Source: Kushneria konosiri
GTDB taxonomy: Bacteria; Pseudomonadota; Gammaproteobacteria; Pseudomonadales; Halomonadaceae
DNA: 64,000 bases
Direction: 5' to 3'
Assembly: GCF_002155145.1 (NCBI RefSeq)
Contig: NZ_CP021323.1
Coordinates: 2,728,001 to 2,792,000 of the forward strand
The notes under the pieces: model-generated
The model's input: only the letters and a program-made list of their open reading frames with translations
Told to the model about the DNA's origin: nothing
The model's database searches: none
In this document: positions 28,289 to 35,463 of the stretch, in pieces
How the letters are laid out: each line of letters starts with the position of its first letter
How positions within the stretch are numbered: position 1 is the first letter of the stretch
Translations under genes and position numbers: made by a program

Positions 28289-28432
28289 TCAATGCTGGAC
28301 AAGACGGCTTAGAAGACGGTCGCGCACCACATCCGGACAGGTTGCTAGATAACGGCAAAGCAGTTCCCGGGGCAGGGCGTTCATATCAGCCAGTCGGGTG
28401 TTATGAACCCGCAGGTAGTCACTTGCAGACAT
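28289..28432 (-). CDS. Small protein of 47 residues, unknown function
   Basis: A short gene with a very good start: GAGGAG eight bases before ATG 28432, and a TGA at 28289-28291. The product begins MSASDYLRVHNTRLADMNAL and is helical and Arg/Leu rich, ending LLSRLVQH; it looks like a DUF1127-type or similar small regulator but I cannot assign it. The frame continues upstream to 28570 without similarity. It converges with recD (27 bases between stops). A palindrome at 28522-28542 lies about 90 bases upstream and may regulate it. Confidence 0.55.
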   Translation of the reverse strand: MSASDYLRVHNTRLADMNALPRELLCRYLATCPDVVRDRLLSRLVQH

Positions 28433-28825
28433 GACAACATCTCCTCTGTCGATGATCGGCATGTACTGATGGCGGCACGTCACCAGGTGGCGATTTGAGC
28501 AGCCATATAAGGGTTTATATTCTTGTACATTATCAGTACAAGACGGCAGGTCCTGCCAGTCAATGTTCATGAATTTTCACAATCGTTAAATGCAAAATTT
28601 TTACACACTGTTCGGTAAGGCCCGGAAATAGAGGGTTTCCGATCACGCTACTATCATTTTCATGATACTTTTCAACTCACAACTGTATTTCCTGAAAACT
28701 TGTACAATATTGTGCTTATAAGCGCATGTCGCGCATCAACAGCACCATTTTCAAAGGGCAGGGTCGGCCTTGGGTCGCCATTGCCATGGGTTTGATCAGC
28801 AACGTACCGGGGTGACAGGAAACCT
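28433..28825. promoter_or_regulatory. AT-rich divergent intergenic region with CTTGTAC palindromes
   Basis: 393 bases without a supported gene, between the 47-aa gene and the RibD-type gene, distinctly AT-rich in 28580-28725. It holds the palindrome CTTGTAC-N7-GTACAAG (28522-28542), an adjoining GGCAGG-T-CCTGCC (28545-28557), and a second CTTGTAC (28699-28705) that runs into the palindrome ACAATATTGT (28704-28713). These look like binding sites of one dimeric regulator; the regulator itself is not in the neighbourhood. Confidence 0.5.
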
Positions 28826-29680
28826 ATGCCAGCAGCGACGCTTTCCAGAGCAAAGGCCTGGGAACATGTATTGCGCGCCCGCCAGTTTGATTGGCAGCGC
28901 GGCCACTCGTATCAGCACGATTCAATGTCAATAACGGCGGGTGGCGCGTGGCGCTGTAGCGACGCCGTGGATGCTGACGCTTCCCGATTGCTTGACATCA
29001 TGCTGCCGCTGGTTGCCCGGTCCGGTGCGCTTGTTATGGCGCAGCTGGGCCAGAGCCTTGATGGCCGCATTGCTACGGAGTGCGGGGCGTCCTACTACGT
29101 GACAGGGCATGAAGGGCTGGTGCATCTGCATGCGCTACGGGCCGTGGTCGATGCTGTAGTGGTTGGTGCGGCCACCGTTGCCATGGATGATCCACGCCTG
29201 ACCGTACGCCACGTGACCGGCGAGCACCCCGTACGAGTGGTGCTGGACCCACGAGGGCGAGTGCCTGAGCGTCGCTTTGTGTTTGAAGATAACAGTGCTC
29301 GAACCCTGCATCTTGTCAGACACGAGCATGTCGAGCGCTGGCAGGCCTGTCACGAACGTCATGGCCATGACGTCAGCGTGCTGGGCCTTGAATCAGGAGA
29401 GGAGGGTGTCGAGCCGCAAGCGGTGATCGAGCTTCTGGGTCGTCAGTCACTGGTGCGTGTGCTGGTGGAAGGCGGTGGCATGACCGTGTCGCGTTTTCTA
29501 CAAAAAGGGTGTCTTGATCGTCTGCATAGTATGGTTACGCCGATGATTATCGGCTCGGGCAGGCCCACGTTGACGCTGCCGGTCATCGAATGTCTGAGTC
29601 AGGCGATGCGACCGTCTTCACGTCACTTTAGCCTGGGAGAAGATGTTCTGTTTGACCTGGAGTTTACAACTGTTGCATAA
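28826..29680 (+). CDS. RibD C-terminal-domain (dihydrofolate-reductase-like) reductase
   Basis: A 284-residue protein: about 60 unassigned residues, then a RibD reductase domain. Conserved parts: AQLGQSLDGRIATECGASYY, VTGHEGLVHLHALRAVVDAV, VVGAATVAMDDPRLTVR, HPVRVVLDPRGRVPE, VRVLVEGGGMTVSRFLQ. In riboflavin synthesis this domain reduces the ribosyl side chain of a diaminopyrimidinone with NADPH, but the deaminase half of RibD is absent and no other rib genes are here, so another aminopyrimidine or pterin substrate is likely. AGGA lies six bases before ATG 28826. Next to a PTPS-fold gene cluster, which strengthens the idea of a pterin-like pathway. Confidence 0.82.
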   Translation: MPAATLSRAKAWEHVLRARQFDWQRGHSYQHDSMSITAGGAWRCSDAVDADASRLLDIMLPLVARSGALVMAQLGQSLDGRIATECGASYYVTGHEGLVHLHALRAVVDAVVVGAATVAMDDPRLTVRHVTGEHPVRVVLDPRGRVPERRFVFEDNSARTLHLVRHEHVERWQACHERHGHDVSVLGLESGEEGVEPQAVIELLGRQSLVRVLVEGGGMTVSRFLQKGCLDRLHSMVTPMIIGSGRPTLTLPVIECLSQAMRPSSRHFSLGEDVLFDLEFTTVA

Positions 29681-29773
29681 ATAGACATTAATTAACGTTT
29701 CTTTTCGGGGTCTTCAATCACGGATTGTCTGGGAAAATATCGGTGTCCCCCGCTATTGAACGGAGCCTGAAAG

Positions 29774-30001
29774 ATGAGCGTAAAAGGGTTGGTGTCCCTG
29801 CTGTTTTGTGTGCTGCTGGTGTCTTCCGGTATCTGGTTGACGATGGACCAGGCAAGCCAGGAGCGGCAGTGGAACCTCAAAAAGGATGCGGCCAACGGCG
29901 TTATTCCAGGTGAGCTTCCGGGAGATGAGGTCGAGGCCGATCTTGCCGATCACCAGACCGGTGAAGACAAGGATACCGGCATCGTCAGTATGCTGCCATG
30001 A
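29774..30001 (+). CDS. Small exported or membrane-anchored protein, unknown
   Basis: A 75-residue product: N-terminal hydrophobic segment (LVSLLFCVLLVSSGIWLTM) then an acidic hydrophilic tail (LPGDEVEADLADHQTGEDKD). It is either cleaved and secreted or a single-pass membrane protein with the tail outside. GGAG lies about eight bases before ATG 29774. It follows the RibD-type gene by 93 bases on the same strand and abuts the convergent flippase-like gene with 2 bases between stop codons. No family recognised. Confidence 0.65.
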   Translation: MSVKGLVSLLFCVLLVSSGIWLTMDQASQERQWNLKKDAANGVIPGELPGDEVEADLADHQTGEDKDTGIVSMLP

Positions 30002-30003
30002 TC

Positions 30004-31007
30004 CTACCTGGACATTTGTCCGGGACGTGTGTGTCGTCCCATCAGAAGTACTGCAGCACCCGGCAGGCTCGAGAGTAGTATAACCGCGCCATAGGTCACC
30101 GAGATCGCCACTCCCTGCTGGGCCGAAAACCCCGCCAGCATCCAGATCAGCGCTGCCGCGCTCTCCCTGATTCCCCAGCCTGCAACCGACAGAGGAATGG
30201 CCATCGCCATGAGTACCGGCGGTGTCAGCGCCAGCAGCGTAGTCGTCGACAGTGGCTCCCCCAGCGCTCTGGCACAGCAGACAAACACCAGCATGTAGCT
30301 CAGCACGATGGCCAAAGAGCCGAGTAGCTGAGGCAACCACAACCGCCGATTCCAGAGTCCGCGTCTCAGGTCCCGCCGCAACGCGCCCAGCCATTCAGAC
30401 GGGTGACGACACACCCATACCCCTGCCAGCAGCAAAACGACCAGTACAATATAAAACAGGGCATAAGGCACGTCGGTGTGGGTATTCAGCATCAGATTGG
30501 CCTGACGCAATCGCTCGATCACTCCATGACGCAGAGGCGTAAAGGCCAACAGTGTGGCCACGGCGACCATCAACAGAGCAGCCTGTCCCGATGCGCGCTC
30601 GATGATAACGGCTCGCAGCGCGGCACCATAGGACACATCCCGTATACCATGGCGCCAGGCGCGTCCCAGATCCCCTGTCATCCCCCCGGTAGAATCTGAT
30701 TGAGAAAGGTCGAGAGGTAGTACTCGCTGATGGCGGTCGGCAGCGACAGTGACATCCCCATGTGAGAAGCCGTCAGTCGCCATCGCCAGGCCGATAGCAT
30801 GATCTGTGGCACCGAGATCAAGAGCGCCAGGCCCAGCCATCCAGGAGACAGGTCGCTCAGCCGTGCCCACAGGGCATCAATATTTACCAGCCATATCACC
30901 CCTCCCAGAATGCCCAGGGTGAGCGTCCAGCGCAGCAGAGAAGAGGTCAGAACACGACGAAAGCCCTGCCTGACGGGAGGCGCTTGTTGAGGCCCCGGGG
31001 CAGTCAT
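30004..31007 (-). pseudogene. UPF0104/flippase-like membrane protein, split by a frameshift
   Basis: Two consecutive frames together encode one lysylphosphatidylglycerol-synthetase-like (UPF0104) polytopic membrane protein of about 333 residues. The first part (31007-30678) ends ...STFLNQILPGG then stop; the second continues MTGDLGRAWRHGIRDVS in another frame. The family motif is NQxLPGGxxGDxxR, so the chain is broken by one missing G within a run of six G (plus-strand C run 30682-30687). The break also creates an ATGA stop/start overlap, so a split two-polypeptide version could in principle be translated. Family members are thought to move lipid-linked sugars or modified lipids across the membrane. 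Start ATG 31007 overlaps the methyltransferase stop. Confidence 0.75.
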
Positions 31008-31921
31008 GATGTCTCTGGAAAGCCAGCGACGGCGAATAGATCGGTATGTCCGACCGTGATCTCGACACGGCCCTGGGCAATATGCTGCTGTCGGCGGGCG
31101 TGCCAGTCCATCAGGGGCTCACGCTGATCGGGGGCCTGTTCCAGTGCTGCCTCCAGCCAGCCCTGAACAAGCGACTGTGCCAGATGCGCCTGGTCCTGGT
31201 CGCGGCAGTCCAGTTGCCAGGGGGCCTGCGTGATGGTCACGTGATAGCCGGATTTCTCCAGAAGCGATCGGGCCACCCCGGGTGCCGTTGTCCCCAGGGC
31301 ACCGTTGAACCCCTTGTCGCGCTGCTGATGAAGGCTGATCCACTGCTGGACCTTCTGATCCATGGCTGCCAGTTGGCGGTCACTATCATGTGGGTCATGA
31401 TCGATCAGAGCGTTGTCGCCATTGATGCTCATGGCCAGCCAGATGGCACATCGATGTGACGCGCATCGATGGATCAGGGTTTCAAGCCAGGGCTCGGAGA
31501 CCAGATCAAGCAGGGCAGAGGCGGTAACCATCGTGGTTTTTGCCAGCAAGTCGTCAGGCAGGGCCCGAGCCAGATCGGAGAGATCGCGCTGCAGGCACTG
31601 CAGCTCGTCAATATGGTCATGGCATCGAGGGCCATTGTCCCGGACGTGGGCCAGCAGGGCCGGGTCCTGATCCATCATGACCCAGTGCTGGTGTGGCGGC
31701 AGACGAGGCGCAAGGTAGCGCAGGTTATTGCCACTGCCACAGCCCAGATCCAGAAACCTCAAGGCTCCCTGACGCGGCTGCGACATCAGCCAGTGCCGAC
31801 ATGTCTCGCCCAGTGGCTGCGCATCACGAGCGTGATGATCGGCTGGCTCGCGCAGGGCGAGCCATGAGGAGCTGAAATCGCTGTGGGCGGCCATGCCGTT
31901 ATCAGGTGGTAGCTGGGTCAT
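31004..31921 (-). CDS. Class I SAM-dependent methyltransferase
   Basis: A 305-residue methyltransferase with the SAM-binding motif I RFLDLGCGSGNNLRYLAP and the acidic motif II VMMDQDPALLAHV; motif post-I/IV region VTASALLDLVSEPWLETL. N-terminal ~60 residues and the C-terminal part (WQLDCRDQDQAHLAQSLVQG) are unassigned. Substrate cannot be read from sequence. It is 15 bases after the glycosyltransferase and overlaps the flippase-like gene by ATGA, so it belongs to the same minus-strand operon and probably methylates the operon's product. Confidence 0.85.
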   Translation of the reverse strand: MTQLPPDNGMAAHSDFSSSWLALREPADHHARDAQPLGETCRHWLMSQPRQGALRFLDLGCGSGNNLRYLAPRLPPHQHWVMMDQDPALLAHVRDNGPRCHDHIDELQCLQRDLSDLARALPDDLLAKTTMVTASALLDLVSEPWLETLIHRCASHRCAIWLAMSINGDNALIDHDPHDSDRQLAAMDQKVQQWISLHQQRDKGFNGALGTTAPGVARSLLEKSGYHVTITQAPWQLDCRDQDQAHLAQSLVQGWLEAALEQAPDQREPLMDWHARRQQHIAQGRVEITVGHTDLFAVAGFPETS

Positions 31922-31936
31922 CGGCAGTGACTCCGA

Positions 31937-33028
31937 TCAGGAAGCCGGGGTGGCATGTAATTGATTCAGGCAGATCAGAAACTGATTGGCAGCCCCCGGC
32001 CAGTCATTGAGTGTCTGGCGCGCCGTGAGCGCCCCCTGGCGCAGTGCCTGATACTGCGCACTGCGGGTATCGCTATTGTCAAACAAGAGCGATTGAAGGG
32101 CATCTCGTATTGCGGGGGCATCGTCAGGCGGCACATGAACGCCGGCGCTGTCGGGTAGCGTATCAGCCAGCGCACCGCCGGTGGTTGTGATGACCGGCAG
32201 GCCATGCGCCAGTGCTTCGGTAATGACCATGCCATAGCCTTCGTAGAAGGAGGGCAGGACGAACAGATCGCTTTGCTGCCAGTGGGTTTCAAGTGTCTCG
32301 GGTGGCAGGGCGCCATGTAACGTGACGCGCTGTTCGAGCTGATGCTCGGAAATCAGGCCTCGAAGCCGTTCGGTATAGCGCTCGTCGCGCGTTTCATCAC
32401 CAATCAGGTCGCAGTGCCAGTCGTGTGCCTTGAGATCGGCCAGAGCCTCGAGCAGCAGATGCTGGCCCTTGCGTGGGATCAGGGTGGCGATACAGAGTAG
32501 CCTTGGCGTGTCGTTATCTGCCGCGGCGACCGGCACCGGCGTGATGCCGGGCTCGATCACGCTGATGCGGTCTTCATCGATACCCAGCTCGATCAGGCGG
32601 CGCTGGGTAAAGGTGCTGGTAACGATAATGCCGGTGGCCGACTGCAGTGCCTGGCATTCAAGTCCCAGCAGCGTTTCGCGCTGATGATCGTTCAGGCCGG
32701 TTTCGTCGCCCAGCGGATGGTGAATGAGCGCTACCAGCGTCAGGCGGCGAGCGTGGACGGCCAATACATCCGGCATCGCACTGGCGGCCAGTCCATCGAC
32801 CACAACCAGACTGCGATCGGTACAGCCGCCCAGCGCGCGCTGAAGTGACTCGCGGGCGATGTCATCCGGCCATGGAAAGCGCCCATCCAGGCCAATGACC
32901 TCAACGGCAATGTCAGACGCTCGCAGCGACTCGACAATGCGTCTGTCGTAGATATAGCCACCGGTGAGCTGATCCGGTCGGCCGGCAACAATCAGGGTCA
33001 GACGACGAATCGATGATGCGGCTGTCAT
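31937..33028 (-). CDS. GT4-family glycosyltransferase
   Basis: A 363-residue GT-B glycosyltransferase. N-terminal acceptor domain includes QLTGGYIYDRRIVESL and VVDGLAASAMPDVLAVHA; C-terminal nucleotide-sugar domain shows LLCIATLIPRKGQHLLLEAL, VTLHGALPPETLETHW, and the E-x7-E motif within LPSFYEGYGMVITEALAHGL. Retaining transfer from a nucleotide sugar is expected; donor and acceptor are unknown. Its ATG overlaps the stop of the PTPS-like gene (ATGA at 33025-33028), showing coupling. Confidence 0.88.
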   Translation of the reverse strand: MTAASSIRRLTLIVAGRPDQLTGGYIYDRRIVESLRASDIAVEVIGLDGRFPWPDDIARESLQRALGGCTDRSLVVVDGLAASAMPDVLAVHARRLTLVALIHHPLGDETGLNDHQRETLLGLECQALQSATGIIVTSTFTQRRLIELGIDEDRISVIEPGITPVPVAAADNDTPRLLCIATLIPRKGQHLLLEALADLKAHDWHCDLIGDETRDERYTERLRGLISEHQLEQRVTLHGALPPETLETHWQQSDLFVLPSFYEGYGMVITEALAHGLPVITTTGGALADTLPDSAGVHVPPDDAPAIRDALQSLLFDNSDTRSAQYQALRQGALTARQTLNDWPGAANQFLICLNQLHATPAS

Positions 33029-33423
33029 AGCGATCCTTCGTAGCTGGCCCAGGCGATGTGGGATTCATGCAGGGTCACACTCATTGCCGTCAGTCCCTTG
33101 CCGGTTTCACCAAGCTGGTCGGCCTCGATCGAGGCGGCCATGCGATCAAAGATGACACGGGCCATGAATTCGGTAGTGGTATTGCGTCCCTTGAACTCCT
33201 CGACCTCGTCGAGGTTTTGCATGTTGATATCGCTCAGGACCTCTGACAGCGTCTGACTGGCAAGGCCAATATCCACGATCAGATCATCCTGATCCAGATC
33301 CGGCCGCTTGAAGGTGACATCCACGATGTAGGTGGCGCCATGGAGCTTTTGCGCCGGACCAAAGATCTGGCCGTTGAAGCTGTGGGCGATCATGACGTGA
33401 TCGCGAACGGTAAGGCTGTACAT
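33025..33423 (-). CDS. PTPS/QueD-fold protein lacking canonical catalytic residues
   Basis: A 132-residue T-fold protein of the 6-pyruvoyl-tetrahydropterin synthase / QueD family, seen from IAHSFNG, KLHGATYIVDVTFKRPD, LIVDIGLASQTLSEVL, GRNTTTEFMARVIFD and TLHESHIAWASYEG. Compared with E. coli QueD, one zinc His survives at His14 and one at His28, but the third ligand of the HGH motif is Ala30, the catalytic Cys position is Ala24, and the His pair before the Thr/Glu motif is Met-Gln. The Glu near residue 118 is kept. Classic PTPS or carboxytetrahydropterin synthase chemistry is therefore unlikely. It sits 27 bases after the dehydrogenase and overlaps the glycosyltransferase start. Confidence 0.82.
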   Translation of the reverse strand: MYSLTVRDHVMIAHSFNGQIFGPAQKLHGATYIVDVTFKRPDLDQDDLIVDIGLASQTLSEVLSDINMQNLDEVEEFKGRNTTTEFMARVIFDRMAASIEADQLGETGKGLTAMSVTLHESHIAWASYEGSL

Positions 33424-33450
33424 GGCAACACTCCAGAAAGGGGAACGATA

Positions 33451-34431
33451 TCAAAAACGGTAGCGAATACGGTGACACAGAGCGCCGGTCTGAGTGGTAA
33501 TCCGGGCCATGGTGTCGGGCAGGTCTTCAAAGGCGCTTTCGGCATCAATCAGCGCGTCGAGTCGATCGTCTTCCAAAAGCGACAGCGCCTGCATCATGCG
33601 TTCACTGTGGGTGCGCCGCGCGGACCTGGCCGGAGACACGGTACCGACCTGGCTTGCGCGCAACGTCAATCGCCGGGAGTGAAACGCTTCACCCAGTGGC
33701 AGGCTGACGGCCTGAGCGCCGAACCAGCTCATCTCGATAATGGAAGCTTCCTGCCCGGCGAGCGATAGCGCCTTTTGAAGTCCTGTCGGACTGCCACTGG
33801 CATGAATGACAAGATCACATTCGCCGCGAGCGGTGTCAGGCGTTGAAAAGTCGATATCCAGGGCTCTGGCCAGCGCTTCACGAGAAGTATCGACATCAAT
33901 CAGTTCGACTCGGGTACCCGGGATATGGCGACAAAGCCAGGCCATGAGCGTGCCTACCACGCCAGCGCCAATAATGGCGATGCGATCACCGATGCGGGGT
34001 GCAGCGTCCCACAGGCCGTTGAGCGCCGTTTCCATGTTGGCAGCCAGCACAGCGCGCTCGGGCGGCAGGGTCTCGGGCAGCGGCATGGCCATGGAGGTCG
34101 GGACAACGTAGCGGTCCTGATGAGGATGCAGGCAAAACACGTAACGTCCCACAAGTGCCTCGGGTCCCTTTTCAACCATGCCCACACTCGAGTAGCCATA
34201 TTTGACCGGTGCAGGAAAGTCGCCCTGCTGGAAAGGCGCTCGCATGCGAGCGTATTCACTCTCGGGCACTCGGCCGTGAAAGATCAGCGTTTCGGTGCCG
34301 CGGCTAATGGCGCTATAGCAGGTACGTACCTGAACCTCTTCCGGCCCGGGGGGGGCCAGAGGCTGGGTTCGGATCGATCCCTGGCCGGGGGCGTCGATCC
34401 AAAAGGCGCGGGCTGTATTTTCCGAGCTCAT
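33451..34431 (-). CDS. MDR-superfamily dehydrogenase (BchC/threonine-dehydrogenase-like)
   Basis: A 326-residue medium-chain dehydrogenase. The N-terminal GroES-like domain has [16 protein letters not shown], typical of the group with SAIS-GTE in place of the zinc-binding GHE region; the Rossmann domain has [16 protein letters not shown] then [16 protein letters not shown]. Structural and catalytic zinc Cys clusters are not evident. Relatives include bacteriochlorophyllide dehydrogenase BchC and sugar or polyol oxidoreductases; the substrate is unknown. First gene of the minus-strand operon. A good ribosome site is not obvious before ATG 34431. Confidence 0.82.
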
Positions 34432-34725
34432 TCATGACCTTGTGCGTTAGAAAAAAGAAAGTCCTGCTGCCAAAAGCGCGCCGAACAGTATAGACACTGT
34501 CCATGGGTTCGCCGTGTCATGTAAAGCTTAAGCCCACTCGTTTTTGTCAAACCATCCACGTTACAAATCGTGATCAGACGCTATTCTGATAACACGGTTT
34601 ATCATACCGGCGCGTGGTTTTCCTGCTGTATGATGACACTCTGATGAAGTTTTAATGCTTTTCTCGGTGGCGCATGAATCGTGATCGATCAGGGGTAATT
34701 GCCGGCCGGGAGGGAGGGCCTGAAC
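34432..34725. promoter_or_regulatory. Divergent control region of the PTPS-like operon and CDP-alcohol transferase
   Basis: 294 bases without a gene. It contains a palindrome TGATAA-N6-TTATCA (34587-34604), an inverted pair ACAGT/ACTGT (34485-34500) overlapping a minus-strand TATACT that could be a -10 for the operon, and GGAGGGAGGG as the ribosome site for the gene at 34726. Shared operators would co-regulate both directions. Confidence 0.45.
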
Positions 34726-35463
34726 ATGAGTGAACAACGTATCGTTGTACGCCAGCCGGTGTGGCCGGCAGCCAGCGTGCTCATGGAGCTTCTGGCCGGC
34801 GGCATCGGTCTGATGCTGATGGTGGCGTTGCTGCATCTTGTTTATGGGGCACCGACACTGCTGTACCCCGTGGCAGGCGGCGTGTATCTGGTTCTGGCCG
34901 GCATCATCGTGCATGGCTGGCCGACGGGCCAGCAGCACTTTGGGTGGGCCAATCGCGTCACTTTGATGCGCGCGGTACTGATCGTACTGCTGACGGCCAT
35001 GCTGCCCTTGCCGGCGCTGATCAATGAACATCATTTGATGGTATTTGCAATTGCCCTGACCGCGCTGACGCTTGATGGGGTGGATGGCTGGGTTGCACGC
35101 CACTTTCATGCCGAAAGCCGGTTTGGTGCACGGCTGGATATGGAGCTGGATGCCTTTTTCATTCTCATGCTGTGTTTGATGCTGGTCATCCAGGGCAAGG
35201 CAGGGGGCTGGATCATGGCCATCGGTGCCATGCGCTATGCCTTCGTGGCTGCCGCCCGGGTCTGGCACTGGCTCAATGAGGAACTGCCGGTGAGCTATCG
35301 ACGCAAGACCATCTGTGTCTGGCAGGTCAGTACCCTGATGACATGTCTATTGCCCTGGGTGGTAACGCCCTGGTCAAATCTGGCACTGGCACTGTCACTG
35401 CTGCTTTTGATGATCTCCTTTGGCATGGACACCGTGTATCTTCATCGGCGCGCTGTTGCCTGA
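34726..35463 (+). CDS. CDP-alcohol phosphatidyltransferase family protein
   Basis: A 245-residue inner-membrane enzyme. The signature D-x2-D-G-x2-A-R-x8-G-x3-D-x3-D is complete: DGVDGWVARHF followed by GARLDMELD, beginning at Asp117. Six or more hydrophobic helices flank it. The family transfers a phosphatidyl or CDP-linked group to an alcohol (phospholipids, phosphoinositol, CDP-glycerol types). The acceptor here is unknown. ATG 34726 follows GGAGGG by seven bases. Divergent from the PTPS-like operon, and with a glycosyltransferase and flippase-like gene across the control region, it suggests a membrane-anchored product. Confidence 0.88.
   Translation: MSEQRIVVRQPVWPAASVLMELLAGGIGLMLMVALLHLVYGAPTLLYPVAGGVYLVLAGIIVHGWPTGQQHFGWANRVTLMRAVLIVLLTAMLPLPALINEHHLMVFAIALTALTLDGVDGWVARHFHAESRFGARLDMELDAFFILMLCLMLVIQGKAGGWIMAIGAMRYAFVAAARVWHWLNEELPVSYRRKTICVWQVSTLMTCLLPWVVTPWSNLALALSLLLLMISFGMDTVYLHRRAVA

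Follow-up and report, generated by a model that had tools for sequence, protein, structure and literature searches.

The window analysed here is a stretch of 64,000 nucleotides from Kushneria konosiri (family Halomonadaceae; contig NZ_CP021323.1, positions 2,728,001 to 2,792,000), taken from a complete genome of 3.58 Mb. It contains seven neighbouring genes that recur together in other genomes and on plasmids, and whose products suggest a biosynthetic pathway. On the plus strand, positions 28826 to 29680 encode a pyrimidine reductase of the RibD_C type, devoid of a deaminase domain (Pfam RibD_C, 1.5e-34). Five genes follow on the minus strand and encode, in order of reading, a BchC-like oxidoreductase of the MDR superfamily lacking the catalytic-zinc motif (33451 to 34431), a PTPS-fold protein of the SCO6650 type (33025 to 33423; Pfam PTPS, 1.1e-23), a GT4-family glycosyltransferase (31937 to 33028; Pfam Glycos_transf_1, 2e-31), a class I S-adenosylmethionine-dependent methyltransferase (31004 to 31921; Pfam Methyltransf_25, 4.2e-8) and a flippase-like membrane protein (UPF0104 or LPG_synthase_TM), which is split over two frames (30004 to 31007; Pfam PF03706). 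The seventh gene, on the plus strand, encodes a CDP-alcohol phosphotransferase (CDPOH; 34699 to 35463; Pfam PF01066 CDP-OH_P_transf, 7.7e-19); its start is a TTG in the list of open reading frames (ORFs), and an in-frame ATG lies at 34726.

The minus-strand genes are closely packed, with 4-base overlaps between the PTPS and GT4 genes and between the methyltransferase and UPF0104 genes, and with two gaps of 27 and 15 bases. The CDPOH gene, divergent from the MDR gene, flanks the operon at one end, and the gene of the RibD-type reductase flanks it at the other. An earlier sequence-only reading of this DNA had described the same tight operon with a divergent CDPOH gene and had placed the same families at or near these positions; all of these families are indeed present, the MDR protein being the one whose best profile match, BchC, is below the cut-off.

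Conservation of the gene set in genomes and on plasmids

Among 61 sampled Halomonadaceae genomes, 36 encode the PTPS-like protein, and the resulting set comprises 35 loci besides the window, one of them shorter than the rest. A wider scan of contigs yielded at least 568 confirmed relatives, of which the best 80, ranked by likeness to the window, span Gammaproteobacteria, Betaproteobacteria, Alphaproteobacteria, Actinomycetota and one metagenome-assembled genome (MAG) of Acidobacteria. Because of this ranking, an independent sample of Pseudomonadota was drawn, in which the PTPS-like gene is present in 26 of 398 genomes (the centre genome counted), 8 of them in the window's family; the 18 loci from outside the family are referred to below as the phylum sample. 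The gene is also present in 9 of 296 sampled Actinomycetota genomes, the centre genome again counted.

Genes of the Halomonadaceae loci were identified by tblastn with the window proteins and then with hidden Markov models (HMMs), which had these same 133 cluster loci (35, 80 and 18) as their training set, control loci being excluded. In the Halomonadaceae loci, the best 80 relatives and the phylum sample, respectively, the MDR gene is present in 35/35, 80/80 and 18/18 loci, GT4 in 35/35, 80/80 and 17/18, and the methyltransferase in 34/35, 78/80 and 16/18, so that the glycosyl- and methyltransferase on which the sequence-only reading had relied belong to the core. The PTPS-like gene is found in 35/35 Halomonadaceae loci. 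The corresponding figures are 34/35, 62/80 and 15/18 for RibD_C, 34/35, 70/80 and 4/18 for CDPOH, and 31/35, 58/80 and 4/18 for UPF0104. None of the six partner families (MDR, GT4, methyltransferase, RibD, CDPOH and UPF0104) was found at any of 20 control loci around other PTPS-domain genes, where a weak match to GTP cyclohydrolase II (GCHII) occurs at one locus and dus at two.

The surroundings of the cluster are variable. Flanking genes in the 35 Halomonadaceae loci include recD (15), dus (14) and AstE (11), and AstE, AKR, dus, recB and recD were rejected as cluster members, since they reflect local synteny in a minority of loci. Two small ORFs near the window reductase are similarly restricted: a secreted-looking one of 75 aa (29774 to 30001, plus strand), between the UPF0104 and RibD genes, was found only in loci of the genus Kushneria (L031-L033 and L086), with no counterpart in L089, and one of 93 aa (28289 to 28570), with which the interval of the sequence-only reading opens, was seen only in L031-L033, L086, L089 and L037. 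Neither is therefore a conserved cluster part, and the small secreted protein that had been counted in the pathway is to be removed from it.

Twenty plasmid records carry a relative of the PTPS-like gene, and 18 were analysed. These loci contain MDR (15), GT4 (14), methyltransferase (14), RibD (12), CDPOH (10), UPF0104 (9), GCHII (9), a sulfatase-superfamily gene (7) and mdoH (2). A mobilizable 59-kb plasmid of Microbacterium carries all seven families of the window and none of the other families in the profile set. Rhizobial plasmids combine the core with CDPOH, UPF0104, GCHII, cytochrome b and a sulfatase-family protein, and in some cases an FkbM methyltransferase. Individual plasmid clusters have further neighbours. 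A ribokinase gene adjoins the cluster in L207, and the cluster on a Palleronia plasmid (L221), located beside repABC, includes an additional PfkB-family kinase, an inositol monophosphatase-family gene and an FkbM methyltransferase. An enzyme of the inositol monophosphatase type is reported to be able to dephosphorylate a ribitylaminopyrimidine phosphate (PMC12051542).

The comparison of gene neighbourhoods had been set beforehand as the test by which the sequence-only reading could be refuted; what it found is that the seven families travel together across genomes and phyla while their flanks change. Conservation of the gene set in the 35, 80 and 18 chromosomal and contig loci and the 18 plasmid loci, compared with the 20 controls, is far beyond chance: in genetic terms, the unit is real. 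Pairwise distances of PTPS were also correlated with those of the other families, but this was uninformative, as cluster families gave r values of 0.69-0.92 and the plain neighbours recD/AstE and dus gave 0.92 and 0.79.

Enzymes of the core and of GTP entry

The window reductase scores 120 bits against Pfam RibD_C (cut-off 24), and its best matches in the PDB are 6p8c (1e-22), named 2,5-diamino-6-ribosylamino-4(3H)-pyrimidinone 5'-phosphate reductase, and 2azn (5e-20), followed by RibD (3e-16). Its nearest solved relatives thus carry the name of diaminopyrimidinone reductases, and its predicted substrate would be a 2,5-diamino- or deaminated ribosylaminopyrimidinone phosphate. Three conserved stretches, LDG[K/R], DDPxLTxR and EGG, occur together in 85 of 107 cluster reductases, and also in that of the window. 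A second RibD_C gene in the same genome (G000:C1:318826) encodes a full-length RibD, so that the cluster reductase is a paralog, and two GCHII-domain genes located elsewhere in the genome indicate that a supply of cyclohydrolase product exists.

In many relatives such a cyclohydrolase is encoded by the cluster itself. GCHII is present in 27/35 Halomonadaceae loci, 45/80 of the best relatives and 7/18 phylum-sample loci, and a creatininase-family hydrolase in 27/35, 45/80 and 1/18. Associations between modules were tested in 51 non-redundant loci, drawn from the 112 of 133 loci having at least 6.5 kb on both sides. Here GCHII and creatininase are strongly linked (both 22, GCHII only 4, creatininase only 2, neither 23; p=2e-8), and one Mycobacterium-labelled MAG encodes a fusion of GCHII with RibD_C (L164:9074-10432). 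The Kushneria loci have neither gene beside the cluster, which fits the use of a housekeeping RibA. The frequency of GCHII and creatininase favours a GTP-derived diaminopyrimidinone or pterin as the substrate.

The role of the creatininase may be connected with the type of cyclohydrolase. Where GCHII has Met, His or Cys at a position occupied elsewhere by Tyr, creatininase is present in 10/10 loci; for six GCHII proteins the residue pattern gave no reading. Met at this position in SCO6655 reportedly leads to a formylated product, and the proposed deformylase role of the creatininase leans in part on this activity. It is otherwise suggested by knowledge of the family and by the BrbF-type formamidase of the riboflavin pathway (PMC9478397); the match of the cluster creatininase to NCBIfam ArfB (37 bits) is below the cut-off. 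A strict rule that non-Tyr GCHII needs a creatininase was not retained: it holds in 10/10 cases, but creatininase is also common beside Tyr-type enzymes.

The PTPS-fold protein is, by its sequence, of the SCO6650 type and not a QueD. It matches SCO6650 (PDB 3d7j) at 8.5e-51, and at 4.7e-60 over its full length with the family profile, whereas the QueD profiles of NCBIfam give weak scores (TIGR03367, 40.7 bits against a cut-off of 89.25; TIGR00039, 26.2 against 125.5). SCO6650 itself, from Streptomyces coelicolor, is a PTPS homolog whose structure was solved singly and labelled uncharacterized; it reportedly lacks zinc and the catalytic triad and performs no PTPS reaction. With QueD and 6-pyruvoyl tetrahydropterin synthase (COG0720), the window protein has in common the T-fold and the Glu anchor, but the catalytic motifs differ. 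The HGH zinc motif of QueD is replaced by HGA in 133/133 relatives, the catalytic DH pair is absent from 13/13 aligned representatives, and both HGH and DH are present in 7/7 comparison PTPS proteins. The position of the usual Cys is Ala in 133/133, and is also non-Cys in 3/7 of the comparison proteins. Glu120, the counterpart in the alignment of the Glu that anchors pterins, never varies (133/133), nor does the whole SCO6650-type pattern of R7, H14, FGPAQ, HGAT and Glu120. The loss of the QueD/PTPS catalytic residues means that ordinary pterin chemistry cannot be read from the annotation. The pterin or aminopyrimidine substrate put forward in the sequence-only reading is favoured by GCHII and creatininase; the pathway is probably pterin-like.

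Other contexts of this family were also observed. In three Streptomyces plasmid loci (L204, L212 and L213), the PTPS-like gene is surrounded by cupin, MBL-fold, BTAD-regulator and sigma-factor genes, possibly a second context for the SCO6650-type family. Elsewhere in the window's genome, a 283-aa ORF (G000:C1:3112865-3113590, L202) contains two tandem PTPS-family matches, and such double matches are found in several other Halomonadaceae genomes.

No Pfam match was obtained for the MDR protein at E<=0.01, and its best NCBIfam match, BchC, reaches 51 bits against a cut-off of 291. The catalytic-zinc motif GHExxG is found in 0/132 cluster MDR proteins, although public records call them zinc-binding. 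An EX7E-type motif is present in 109 of 131 GT4 proteins, and GT4 and methyltransferase are fused into one ORF in seven loci (L049, L056, L059, L060 and L166-L168).

Accessory membrane genes and periplasmic glucan neighbours

The window CDPOH protein scores 69 bits against its Pfam profile (cut-off 22), and the CDP-alcohol motif D(x)2DG(x)2AR(x)8G(x)3D(x)3D is present in 106/106 cluster proteins. In the 51 non-redundant loci, CDPOH and UPF0104 occur together in 29, CDPOH alone in 7, UPF0104 alone in 0 and neither in 15 (p=5e-8). CDPOH is also associated with YceI (p=8e-4), and a CDPOH-YceI lipid-binding domain fusion is encoded in a Kiloniellales MAG (L122:6795-8201). CDPOH, UPF0104 and YceI form an accessory membrane module, which makes membrane anchoring a feature of some cluster versions at most. 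That part of the sequence-only reading therefore stands in a narrower form, given the 4/18 loci of the phylum sample with CDPOH and with UPF0104 and the frameshifted UPF0104 of the window.

The flippase-like family named for this last gene is indeed present, in two pieces. The frames at 30678-31007 and 30004-30870 match positions 2-87 and 88-300 of Pfam PF03706, respectively, and the break lies next to a run of six C in the window assembly. A single intact ORF of 327-334 aa was found in 4/4 relatives checked (L031, L032, L033 and L089; L086 and L031 are one contig, counted once). A true frameshift or an error in the assembly would account for the split. A sulfatase-superfamily neighbour was also considered as a headgroup transferase and set aside: its Pfam matches are weak (none for L111), its tie to CDPOH is not significant (p=0.14), and a search for solved relatives returned none, with two matches at chance level.

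The osmoregulated periplasmic glucan genes mdoGH are frequent neighbours of the cluster and lie outside its core. MdoH or MdoG, with identities checked, is encoded near the cluster in 15/35 Halomonadaceae loci, and MdoH in 10/18 phylum-sample loci. Three arrangements were distinguished: in Halomonas-type loci these genes follow creatininase and FkbM, in Marinobacter they follow GalU, and in other lineages they adjoin the MDR gene, either divergent as in Methylosinus or, in Neorhizobium, 2 bases upstream on the same strand. Among Halomonadaceae genomes, MdoG is present in 36/36 with the cluster vs 9/25 without it (p=1e-8), or by genus in 13/13 vs 6/11 (p=0.01). It lies within 12 kb of the cluster in 15/36, against 0.4 expected from a binomial calculation with a 4-Mb genome and two copies, uncorrected for shared Halomonas ancestry. 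Of the 10 phylum-sample genomes in which MdoH adjoins the cluster, 3 have no MdoG; it is also missing from 2/2 tested actinobacterial genomes with the cluster. At the window locus there is no mdo gene, and the nearest MdoG copy is about 49 kb away. A periplasmic-glucan function was set aside as the main claim, as the core is found without mdoG in some genomes.

A candidate pathway and its alternatives

On balance, and with no great confidence, we favour the reading that the seven genes are one version of a mobile biosynthetic cluster for a glycosylated, methylated pterin-like compound, lipid-linked in such versions. The route that we infer, in which substrate, single steps, their order and the lipid linkage are all predicted from the encoded families, would begin with GTP, opened by a GCHII that is cluster-encoded in many relatives and is probably the housekeeping RibA in Kushneria. 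Where present, the creatininase-family hydrolase would take off the formyl group if the cyclohydrolase leaves one, and the RibD_C reductase would turn the ribosyl group of the side chain into ribityl. With its conserved Glu, the SCO6650-type protein may then grip a diaminopyrimidinone or pterin ring and, together with the zinc-less MDR enzyme, build or modify the ring or side chain by a chemistry unlike that of QueD/PTPS. Glycosylation would be the task of GT4, and methylation that of the methyltransferase. In versions with CDPOH, the product or its phosphorylated side chain could be joined to a lipid, and UPF0104 might carry the lipid-linked product across the inner membrane; in other species, YceI may serve as a carrier in the periplasm. 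A more far-reaching form of this reading proposes that hundreds of bacteria use a shared mobile pathway to make a GTP-derived, glycosylated and methylated pterin or ribitylated aminopyrimidine on a phospholipid-type anchor, which crosses the inner membrane and in many Pseudomonadota is delivered to, or made with, periplasmic glucans; in this full form it is unlikely.

Several observations weigh against the favoured reading. The HMMs were tested on the loci of their own training set; BLAST with the window proteins alone agrees with them, but misses diverged members. The core is incomplete in places, as RibD is absent in 3/18 phylum-sample loci and GT4 in 1/18 (L179), plasmid L207 has no GT4 either, and the three Streptomyces plasmid loci out of 18 have no cluster gene other than the PTPS-like one. 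Compared with the archaeal and bacterial types in NCBIfam, the window reductase reaches two close scores, 106 and 104 bits, and both fall short of the respective cut-off; the PTPS-like protein could have a ligand other than a pterin. Creatininase also occurs beside Tyr-type GCHII, and some GCHII loci are without creatininase, so that the formyl argument is only partly borne out. Finally, most loci of the phylum sample have no membrane module, and its UPF0104 gene is frameshifted in the window.

This last point bears on a serious if rather doubtful alternative, that the core (RibD_C, MDR, PTPS, GT4 and methyltransferase) yields a pterin or pyrimidine that is glycosylated and methylated but soluble, for instance a cofactor, a pigment or a metabolite for secretion, with CDPOH and UPF0104 either serving a separate lipid or acting in export only. 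Pterin glycosides are known compounds, and the core is without the membrane module in 14/18 phylum-sample loci and on plasmids L206, L207 and L209. However, where CDPOH and UPF0104 are present, they are tightly coupled to each other and to the core in several phyla, and they are the sole extras on the Microbacterium plasmid unit.

Less probable again is the recruitment of the PTPS-fold and RibD_C proteins to a non-pterin chemistry, in which case the product would be a glycan or glycolipid of an ordinary kind for the envelope, perhaps one that decorates periplasmic glucans. The adjacency of MdoH/MdoG in three arrangements and the distribution of MdoG among Halomonadaceae agree with it, but GCHII, creatininase and the GCHII-RibD_C fusion have no evident use in plain glycan synthesis, and the actinobacterial and MdoH-adjacent genomes devoid of MdoG also speak against it.

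That the genes are merely duplicated housekeeping genes of riboflavin or queuosine synthesis is very improbable. Public records do name the PTPS gene 6-carboxytetrahydropterin synthase and place the reductase in the RibD family, but a full RibD and two GCHII-domain genes exist elsewhere in the genome, the PTPS gene lacks HGH and DH and reaches 41 bits against the QueD cut-off of 89, and no further queuosine gene was seen in the cluster. Chance adjacency of independent genes, which the size and commonness of the single families might suggest, is practically excluded by 0/20 controls against 35/35 loci and by a unit kept across phyla and on plasmids.

Known systems resemble parts of the cluster. 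In toxoflavin-type clusters, as in many relatives of the window cluster, GCHII and a RibD-like enzyme stand with a methyltransferase, and the product is pteridine-like; to our knowledge, those clusters contain no PTPS-like protein, MDR, GT4 or CDP-alcohol transferase. The riboflavin pathway (GCHII, RibD reductase and BrbF-type formamidase; PMC9478397) employs the same families at what would be the pathway entry. In contrast, the deaminase domain, lumazine synthase and riboflavin synthase are not in the cluster, which has MDR, PTPS-like, GT4 and methyltransferase genes instead; these three families are not among the recurrent neighbours, and the window reductase is without a deaminase domain. 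A literature search, conducted mostly without subscription papers, found no description of this gene set and no reported identity of a product, and the view that no described pathway has this set is upheld to that extent.

For these cluster proteins, '6-carboxytetrahydropterin synthase' and 'zinc-binding alcohol dehydrogenase', as public records have it, are misleading names. Proteins so far known singly, among them an unexplained PTPS homolog and divergent GTP cyclohydrolases, are now placed in a defined gene set, with named culturable relatives and a 59-kb plasmid unit, which opens the SCO6650 family to functional tests. A lipid linkage of the product, or a tie to periplasmic glucans, would make it an envelope molecule of a kind so far unreported; should the lipid-anchored, glucan-linked reading be true, it would stand for a new class of envelope components, with a redox- and light-active ring as their scaffold.

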